A stretch of 64,000 nt of DNA from Halostagnicola kamekurae (GTDB lineage: Archaea; Halobacteriota; Halobacteria; Halobacteriales; Natrialbaceae), in contig NZ_FOZS01000001.1 of assembly GCF_900116205.1 (NCBI RefSeq), positions 124,001 through 188,000 of the forward strand. Direction: 5' to 3'. A model generated the notes under the pieces. It did not search any database and was not told the DNA's origin. It was given only the letters and a program-made list of their open reading frames with translations. Positions within the stretch are counted from its first letter, which is position 1; every line of letters starts with the position of its first letter. Below are positions 45,077 to 47,353 of the stretch, piece by piece. The translations under genes were made by a program, and so were the position numbers.

Positions 45077-45100
45077 ACACCCCGTCATTTCAAGTGGAAC
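45077..45100 (-). promoter_or_regulatory. Origin recognition box ORB1
   Basis: The minus strand reads GTTCCACTTGAAATGACGGG followed by GTGT. It is adjacent to the orc1 start and probably binds Orc1 both for origin function and for autoregulation. Confidence 0.75.
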
Positions 45101-45350: not shown

Positions 45351-45380
45351 ACCCCCCACCCCTTCGTTTCAGGTGGAAAC
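45351..45380 (-). promoter_or_regulatory. Origin recognition box ORB2
   Basis: The minus strand reads GTTTCCACCTGAAACGAAGG then GGTGGGG, the closest match in the window to the haloarchaeal ORB consensus. It is followed on the inner side by a G-run-rich stretch at 45388-45410. Confidence 0.9.
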
Positions 45381-45461
45381 GGTTCCGAGAGGGGGTGGGT
45401 GGGAGGGGGGATTGAATATGGGAAGATTCAAGTTGGTAACACAGAAACAGTATCCGCAGAA

Positions 45462-45768
45462 CTAGCAAAACTAGTAATTTACTAGAGTTAGATTAATCAA
45501 CGCTAGTGTTTACTAGAAAGCGGACTCTATAGCAACTCAGTTACTAGAACGGCCGGATCTCCGCTTTCGTTTTTCGAACGGCCCTCTTTCCCCACGAATC
45601 CCCTCCAAATCCTACTTAGAACTCTTCTCTCGGCTATTTCTCCGTCTCTCGCTCGAGTTTGCACTCGGATCATCCCGTTTTCCACCGATCCGCCACCCTC
45701 CCTGATTCGCGATCTCCAGTCGAAACGAAGGGGTGGGGGATCAGCCGCTTATACTAGTATGGTTCTAG
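45462..45768. other. CTAG cluster in the origin's AT-rich core
   Basis: CTAG occurs at 45462, 45471, 45482, 45503, 45513, 45544, 45754 and 45765: eight copies in 307 bp, most as ACTAG. Further copies are at 45208 and 46293. Elsewhere in the window CTAG appears roughly once per 2 kb by eye. CTAG is known to be depleted in haloarchaeal genomes and to be methylated in several of them. Confidence 0.85.
45714..45740 (+). promoter_or_regulatory. Origin recognition box ORB3
   Basis: The plus strand reads CTCCAGTCGAAACGAAGGGG followed by TGGGGGA, in the orientation opposite to ORB2. It closes the AT-rich core on the right side. Confidence 0.85.
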
Positions 45769-46297: not shown

Positions 46298-46936
46298 ATG
46301 GGACTGTTAAAAGGACTTAAAGATAGTATCTCTCGCGTTACGGATCGGTTGTTTTCCGAACAGGAGCCAAAACGGATTGGAATCTACGGGCCGCCGAACG
46401 CCGGGAAGACGACGTTAGCGAACCGCATTGCTCGAGACTGGACAGGTGACGCGATCGGGACGGAGAGTCACATTCCACACGAAACGCGCCGCGCACGAAG
46501 AAAGGAAGGAGTCGAAATCGAGCGCAACGGCAAATCCGTGACGATCGATATCGTCGATACGCCCGGTGTCACGACGAAAGTGGACTACGAGGAGTTCACC
46601 GGAGAGATGGAAGAAGACGACGCGATCCGTCGCTCTCGGGAGGCGACCGAAGGCGTCGCAGAGGCCATGCACTGGCTTCGCGAGGACGTCGATGGCGTCA
46701 TTTACGTTCTCGATAGCGCGGAAGATCCGATCACGCAGGTCAATACGATGTTGATCGGAATCATCGAGTCGCGAGAGCTGCCGGTTCTCATCTTCGCGAA
46801 CAAGATCGACCTCGACGACTCGAGTGTCAAACGCATCGAGGACGCGTTCCCACAGCACAAGACCGTCCCGTTGTCGGCCAAAGAAGGCGACAACATGGAC
46901 GAAGTGTACGAGAACATCGCGGAGTACTTCGGGTGA
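46298..46936 (+). CDS. Era-like small GTP-binding protein, origin-associated (OapA-type)
   Basis: A 212-aa GTPase from ATG 46298 (MGLLKGLKDSISRVTDRLF). G1 is GIYGPPNAGKTTLANRI, G3 is IVDTPGVTTKVDYEEF, G4 is FANKIDLDDS and G5 is PLSAKEGDNMDE. A switch I-like segment SHIPHETRRARRKEGVEIE precedes G3. It is the first gene of the three-gene operon next to oriC in many haloarchaea (origin-associated proteins, from memory; naming is tentative). Six bases separate its stop from the DUF2073 gene. A role in replication or in cell-surface processes is not decided by sequence. Confidence 0.88.
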   Translation: MGLLKGLKDSISRVTDRLFSEQEPKRIGIYGPPNAGKTTLANRIARDWTGDAIGTESHIPHETRRARRKEGVEIERNGKSVTIDIVDTPGVTTKVDYEEFTGEMEEDDAIRRSREATEGVAEAMHWLREDVDGVIYVLDSAEDPITQVNTMLIGIIESRELPVLIFANKIDLDDSSVKRIEDAFPQHKTVPLSAKEGDNMDEVYENIAEYFG

Positions 46937-46942
46937 TCTGAG

Positions 46943-47353
46943 ATGCCCAAAGCAACGAACGCAGACGACGGCGATGGCCCGGAACGTCCCGACGGCGTCC
47001 AGATCGACCTCATCAGCGGCGAACGGATGGAGGGGATGGCCAGCATGGAGAAGATCCGGATGATTCTCGACGGCGTCCACGACGGCAACATCGTCATCCT
47101 CGAGGAGGGGCTCTCGCCCGACGAAGAGAGTCGGCTCATCGAGGTGACGATGGCCGAAATCAGTCCCGACGAGTTCAACGGCATCGAGATCGAAACCTAT
47201 CCGAAATCCAGCACCGGCAACTCGTCGATCCTCGGTCGGATCATGGGGAACAACGAATCGACGAACAAACTCACCGTCATCGGACCGGCGAACCAGATCG
47301 AAACCCTTCACAAGGACGAAACGCTCATCAGCGCGCTCGTCAGCCGTAACTAA
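46943..47353 (+). CDS. DUF2073 protein, origin-associated (OapB-type)
   Basis: A 136-aa cytosolic protein with the DUF2073 pattern: GVQIDLISGERMEGMASMEKIRMILDGVHDGNIVILEEGLSPDEESRL, then EIETYPKS and LTVIGPANQIETLHKDETLISALVS. It lies in an operon between the GTPase and the zinc-ribbon protein, and its TAA overlaps the next ATG by one base. Constant linkage with the GTPase suggests they form a complex; the activity is unknown. Confidence 0.85.
   Translation: MPKATNADDGDGPERPDGVQIDLISGERMEGMASMEKIRMILDGVHDGNIVILEEGLSPDEESRLIEVTMAEISPDEFNGIEIETYPKSSTGNSSILGRIMGNNESTNKLTVIGPANQIETLHKDETLISALVSRN

Follow-up and report, generated by a model that had tools for sequence, protein, structure and literature searches.

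The predicted replication origin oriC1 within the analysed window, a stretch of 64,000 nucleotides from Halostagnicola kamekurae, carries an array of CTAG tetramers which we interpret as a methylation-readable element, with its sites on one face of the helix, that would couple re-initiation or duplex opening to the methylation state of the DNA; we assign this reading a probability of roughly 0.55. At the level of sequence, the array is defined by the sites themselves, their fixed positions in related origins, a phasing of 10.4 bp, the shared orientation of a CTAGTAA heptamer, linkage to the ORBs rather than to orc1, and the loss of most CTAG from lineages without the corresponding methyltransferase. 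Conservation of the array in place across dozens of related species suggests that a protein reads its methylation state, as SeqA does in E. coli.

Assignment of the locus to oriC1 is a prediction that relies on two hallmarks of such origins in haloarchaea, both of which are present: an adjoining orc1/cdc6 gene, here with recognizable Cdc6 domains, and an AT-rich region flanked by inverted G-string ORBs (Table 1). The 711-aa Orc1/Cdc6 protein contains an acidic low-complexity insert of ~240 residues between the start of the ATPase and the lid domain, and the conserved gene next to that of the GTPase is, we presume, oap (origin-associated protein). The preliminary description had counted eight CTAG in 307 bp (45462-45768) and about one per 2 kb in the rest of the window. 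Both figures hold: the eight copies start at positions 45462, 45471, 45482, 45503, 45513, 45544, 45754, and 45765, and of the 43 CTAG in the whole window the remaining 35 amount to ~1 per 1.8 kb. The cluster had also been placed in the AT-rich core of the origin, which is correct for the first six sites, located in the 86-bp core between the inverted ORB2 and ORB3 (45462-45547), where the GC content is 32-40% with the minimum of 32% between the two ORBs, but not for the pair at 45754/45765, which lies outside the AT-rich core, beyond ORB3 and toward the GTPase gene. Two relatives within the genus (L003:3144-3158 and L237:5102-5116) likewise carry a CTAG pair spaced by 11 bp. The general layout resembles that of oriC1 of Haloarcula hispanica, in which inverted G-string ORBs surround an AT-rich region with a C/G-rich repeat just inside, and the C-rich stretch in our window is likely the equivalent of the G-rich repeat which enhances that origin (PMC3936714). 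The text of that study makes no mention of CTAG, and our window adds the CTAG array and the CGGATACTGTTT core to this layout.

Table 1 Features of the predicted oriC1 region in the window. Offsets are relative to the CGG of the conserved core; counts are origins with CTAG at the position
Feature	Coordinates	Strand	CTAG start	Remarks
orc1/cdc6 gene, 711 aa	42945..45080	-		Cdc6_C E 1.9e-31, Cdc6_lid E 1.2e-30
Weaker ORB-like element at orc1 start	45080..45100	+		ORB pattern scan, 4 mismatches
ORB2 with G-string	45351..45380	+		ORB pattern scan, core match 45359-45379
C-rich stretch	45383..45411	-		read from sequence
Site F position	45413..45416	-	absent	+40; CTAG missing in window, present in 23/47 relatives
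Conserved origin core, TGCGGATACTGTTTC...CTTGAAT in window	45425..45458	-		consensus CGGATACTGTTT-N17-ATAAA
Site E, TTTTGCTAGT, adjoins core	45462..45465	-	45462	-9; 39/47 related origins, 22/25 held-out
Extra CTAG	45471..45474	.	45471	-18; also in some relatives
Site D, CTAGTAA	45479..45485	-	45482	-29; 45/47 related origins, 24/25 held-out
Site C, CTAG	45500..45506	-	45503	-50; 40/47 related origins, 23/25 held-out
Site B, CTAGTAA	45510..45516	-	45513	-60; 41/47 related origins, 23/25 held-out
Site A, CTAGTAA	45541..45547	-	45544	-91; 37/47 related origins, 22/25 held-out
ORB3 with G-string, inverted relative to ORB2	45713..45740	-		ORB pattern scan, core match 45713-45733
Two CTAG at 11-bp spacing, beyond ORB3	45754..45768	.	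45754, 45765	same spacing in L003, L237
GTPase gene, far side of origin from orc1	46299..46936	+		open frame, conserved synteny
Conserved downstream gene	46943..47353	+		open frame; beside GTPase gene in relatives

For comparison, 80 orc1-bearing loci were collected from haloarchaea. In most Natrialbaceae, the CTAG spacings repeat as 31, 10, 21-22, and 20 bp, and the array is adjoined by the core CTAGTnnTACGGATACTGTTTC-N-ATAAA, to which succeed position F with TTCTAGA, a stretch rich in C, and finally an ORB. The window is matched at 45391-45478 by a model of the core region (R1; E = 2e-16). When 47 Natrialbaceae origins were aligned on the core, with its CGG set to 0, CTAG recurred at -112 (12 origins), -92/-91 (37), -61/-60 (41), -51/-50 (40), -30/-29 (45), -9 (39), +12 (8), and +40 (23). 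The shared positions account for 214 of the 254 upstream CTAG in these origins, and in a set of 50 non-redundant origins the largest CTAG pile-up was 40, compared to a maximum of 10 in 2000 shuffles. It should be noted that the 47 origins were chosen partly by their CTAG; hence 25 further, held-out origins were analysed, located with the core-region model, which spans sites E and F and is to that extent not fully independent, whereas sites A to D lie outside it. Each of the sites A to E carried CTAG in 22 to 24 of these 25 origins (Table 1). All compared origins share ancestry, and the poorly conserved columns of the spacer serve as an internal control. The comparison with oriC1 of related genera, suggested in the preliminary description, thus shows the cluster to be shared, in the 47 and the 25 held-out origins alike. 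CTAG is over-represented in the spacer of the origin and keeps its place across orthologous loci, as expected of an origin-clustered orphan-methyltransferase motif (Blow et al. 2016).

The core itself extends further than the array. Of 293 genomes of the order, 231 have CGGATACTGTTT...ATAAA, genomes that lack the methyltransferase among them, and haloarchaeal origins in general may contain this element. Small contigs that are probably plasmids also have it next to other orc1 genes, mostly without a CTAG array (L206:4314-4352, L207:3700-3744, and L235 near 3333). A relationship between the core and ORB half-sites was discarded after visual inspection, as only CGG and GTT are steady across families.

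The sites of the array are directional and helically phased. Among the 47 origins, CTAG is followed by TAA in 123 cases; the mirrored form is absent from the frequent flanks in this set and the other side displays no comparable preference. Most sites are therefore CTAGTAA heptamers repeated in one direction, including site C in most relatives (CTAGCGT in the window). The pooled CTAG positions of these origins have a best period of 10.40 bp (R = 0.82), and those of the held-out origins (n = 25) one of 10.45 bp. For the five consensus sites with gaps of 31, 10, 21, and 20 bp, random gaps are phased equally well at P = 2e-4 (~2 of 10,000 trials), and for the variant with gaps of 31, 10, 22, and 20 bp in 22 of 10,000 trials. 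Clear phasing and a clear heptamer are confined to Natrialbaceae: in Haloarcula and other families, CTAG has other flanks and spacings, and no phasing was seen there by eye. CTAG is the element common to the families, and the CTAGTAA heptamer and its phasing are a refinement of Natrialbaceae. The preliminary description had noted neither the heptamer with its direction, nor the phasing, nor the core.

Such phasing brings to mind SeqA, which in vitro binds efficiently to sites two to three 10.4-bp turns apart, although the GATC sites of E. coli oriC itself are not phased (PMC5145175). The comparison made in the preliminary description with the GATC sites at oriC of E. coli is apt insofar as methyltransferase sites are clustered at an origin and spaced by whole helical turns, as the in vitro preference of SeqA requires. 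It fails for the reader protein: a profile search for SeqA (PF03925) found no homolog in the genome, with the E. coli control positive, so that a reader, if there is one, differs from SeqA. Furthermore, the array would carry m4C in CTAG rather than m6A in GATC, CTAG is rare in the genome, and the array is phased, unlike E. coli oriC.

The genome encodes one full-length N4/N6 methyltransferase of the right kind, a 351-aa protein (G000:C2:1149199-1150251) with the motifs TSPPY and, further on, DPFWGTG. It is an ortholog of the haloarchaeal CTAG (m4C) methyltransferase, and from orthology and distribution we infer that it shares the specificity of that enzyme. No nuclease was recognized among the open frames read in the 3.7 kb around the gene; a cognate methyltransferase, of inferred specificity, without a restriction partner is a further feature of the systems described by Blow et al. 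(2016). A predicted CTAG methyltransferase, the absence of which from this strain had been named, together with a lack of methylation, as an argument against the proposal, is encoded. Strong orthologs were found in 73 of the 80 named genomes, with a weak 74th match in Halorubrum tebenquichense, and an ortholog is present in 266 of the 293 genomes of the order, being missing mainly from one family, that of Halorubrum-like and related genera, a pattern that matches the one published for the CTAG enzyme HVO_0794 (PMC5867850, PMC6471742).

Presence of this enzyme and presence of the sites go broadly together. Without correction for phylogeny, Natrialbaceae have on average 5.89 CTAG per 180 bp around the core, enzyme-positive genomes of other groups 2.84, and genomes lacking the enzyme 0.54, compared to 0.05-0.07 in the far background; the enzyme-negative origins are no less AT-rich than the enzyme-positive ones, and in fact have the highest AT content. 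At site F, CTAG was found in 43 of 58 enzyme-positive genomes (Halorubrum-like ones left out) versus 0 of 13 enzyme-negative genomes. In this comparison, some core calls are weak and absence means absence of this particular ortholog. The sequences thus read indicate that lineages without the enzyme keep the core and have lost most of the CTAG. A strict one-to-one link is not supported: three Halorubrum-like genomes have the enzyme and no CTAG at the core, and four of 13 enzyme-negative cores keep one or two.

CTAG is methylated in some haloarchaea, as the preliminary description stated: in two Natrinema species, 97% and 98.7% of CTAG are modified, as species-level figures (PMC6696651), and both species carry the array (L027 and L038). 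Against the favoured reading, unmethylated CTAG are clustered in low-GC regions in Haloferax lucertense (PMC11001535), which implies that origin sites might stay unmethylated. Also against it counts the single enzyme-gene deletion that has been studied, which caused no growth defect, although it was made in Haloferax volcanii, a species able to live without origins. The strain in question lacked the CTAG enzyme gene along with other RM genes, and CTAG density in this species is high at only one origin (PMC5867850). The other Haloferax oriC1 loci examined contain few CTAG.

Neither the clustering of CTAG at origins of haloarchaea nor the correlation of such clusters with the enzyme is new: both were described by Blow et al. 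(2016), for clusters upstream of orc1/cdc6 genes in haloarchaea and an orphan methyltransferase (PMC4752239). The array resembles these clusters in its CTAG-enriched spacer upstream of orc1/cdc6, the orphan methyltransferase, and the occurrence at more than one origin per genome. However, that study considered motif density in 500-bp windows, and its text gives neither spacing nor helical phasing; the fixed positions, the orientation of CTAGTAA, the 10.4-bp phasing, and the linkage to ORBs despite a moved orc1 go beyond it. In the open-licence literature, supplementary figures aside, we found no description of the fixed positions, directional heptamer, helical phasing, or core. The phased array and the CGGATACTGTTT core add two origin elements to the ORB-based picture of haloarchaeal oriC1. 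Moreover, what the CTAG methyltransferase so widespread in haloarchaea does is recognized as an open question (PMC6471742), and the array offers defined bases, spacings, and species, such as Natrinema with its 97-98.7% CTAG methylation, in which to look for a link between DNA methylation and the initiation of archaeal replication.

A methylation-readable array could operate as follows. In oriC1 of Natrialbaceae, five to seven CTAG, mostly as directional CTAGTAA, lie on one helix face in the unwinding region between inverted ORBs, next to a core found throughout the class, each CTAG being a predicted target of the m4C methyltransferase of the same genome. Passage of the fork would leave all sites hemimethylated together; a putative reader protein, or the methyltransferase itself, might then bind neighbouring same-face sites cooperatively and hold the duplex shut, or bar Orc1/MCM, until the sites are remethylated. 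The arrangement would be analogous to GATC/Dam/SeqA at E. coli oriC, with another enzyme and another reader. A more specific version, which we put forward tentatively as possible, is an archaeal counterpart of origin sequestration, in which the hemimethylated m4C CTAGTAA array and a putative cooperative reader would ensure that oriC1 fires once per cycle; if true, the CTAG methyltransferase conserved among haloarchaea would serve this function.

Protein binding to CTAGTAA that does not depend on methylation is a serious rival to this reading, even if on balance we consider it unlikely. The repeats would then be iterons, bound in the unwinding region by a phased oligomer of Orc1 or another origin factor, and CTAG would be methylated there simply because the enzyme acts on all CTAG. 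Indeed, the heptamer is directional where the methylation site is palindromic, conservation extends beyond CTAG to TAA, and direct repeats on a single helix face, at whole-helical-turn spacing, are what origins of iteron plasmids also have. Each repeat of the array, however, holds a methyltransferase site, and no iteron-type replication initiator was identified. Outside Natrialbaceae, it is CTAG that stays while flanks and spacings change, and lineages lacking the enzyme retain the core mostly without CTAG, both of which speak against iterons.

Improbable, in our estimate, is a purely physical effect, whereby CTAG and its N4-methylation alter melting or bending of the unwinding element with no dedicated reader, phased steps adding up to a coherent bend. 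The array does occupy the most AT-rich stretch between the ORBs, a bend can sum over phased sites, and DNA kinks have been associated with CTAG (PMC6471742), but this explanation accounts for neither the conserved TAA flank nor the exact positions, and other families have core-bearing origins without CTAG.

Identity of the array as the orc1 promoter is ruled out by origins that are separated from orc1. In Natrinema ejinorense (L024, L222/L233), the GTPase gene has stayed with the array and two inverted ORBs, while orc1 lies ~155 kb away, and in two further genomes (L225 and L228) the array with ORBs has neither of these genes within 1.5 kb; since the array keeps to the ORBs even when orc1 is so distant, it is an element of the origin. 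In Natronococcus, the array module is inverted relative to orc1. The broader proposal, that CTAG serves as an operator and the ATAAA core as a TATA box, for orc1 or for a transcript crossing the origin, draws on the opposite-strand reading of ATAAA (TTTAT) as a possible TATA box and on a core spacing that would fit a start site; given the separated origins and the reversed module, we regard it as very improbable. An inverted core was recorded in L018, L019, L033, L043, and L082, which comprise Natronococcus-type loci with the array and Halonotius with the core only; in two Natronococcus loci that were checked, the inverted module is still flanked by ORBs.

The density of the cluster was compared with several null models. 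A first-order Markov model of the whole window predicts 0.53 CTAG per 311 bp, and eight were reached in 0 of 3000 draws; a first-order model of the local intergenic region (50% GC) predicts 1.3, with P(>=8) = 5e-5, and a second-order local model gives P = 0.0015 for at least eight. A null built from the 136-bp AT-rich core alone yields CTAG numbers as high as observed, because this stretch consists largely of the repeats themselves. Among 212 equally AT-rich 311-bp control windows, 146 contain no CTAG, 54 one, and 12 two, the maximum; comparable density in other AT-rich regions, which would have spoken against the proposal, is thus not seen among these controls. The presumed depletion of CTAG outside the cluster is real, the whole-window frequency being below the composition-based expectation. 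This rarity, together with 34 CTAG in 8 kb elsewhere in the genome, is what could favour neutral accumulation, in which CTAG purged from coding sequence piles up in any AT-rich spacer, a scarcely credible account in view of the 0-2 CTAG of AT-matched windows, the equally AT-rich and nearly CTAG-free enzyme-negative origins, and the positions conserved in held-out species, which we count as refuting it. Composition alone is ruled out by the same windows and enzyme-negative origins.

Genome-wide clustering was searched via triplets of CTAG and via the CTAGTAA heptamer, of which the genome has 54 copies. Chains of at least four CTAG at gaps of <=28 bp occur at only three places in the 4.1-Mb genome. 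Two of these lie upstream of orc1 genes, namely the present cluster and another at a second orc1 gene; the third has a different location. The dense stretch with 34 CTAG (G000:C2:394000-402000, L134) has no comparable closely spaced run and is apparently an island of surface-glycan-like genes. Four CTAG within ~70 bp lie in a spacer (G000:C1:63612-63684, L131:3613-3685) ~1.4 kb upstream of a gene which by eye resembles that for the small subunit of replication factor C. Eight CTAG in 55 bp, with another spacing, are found ~0.8 kb upstream of another orc1 gene of the same genome (G000:C1:1477286-1477340, L132:5287-5338).
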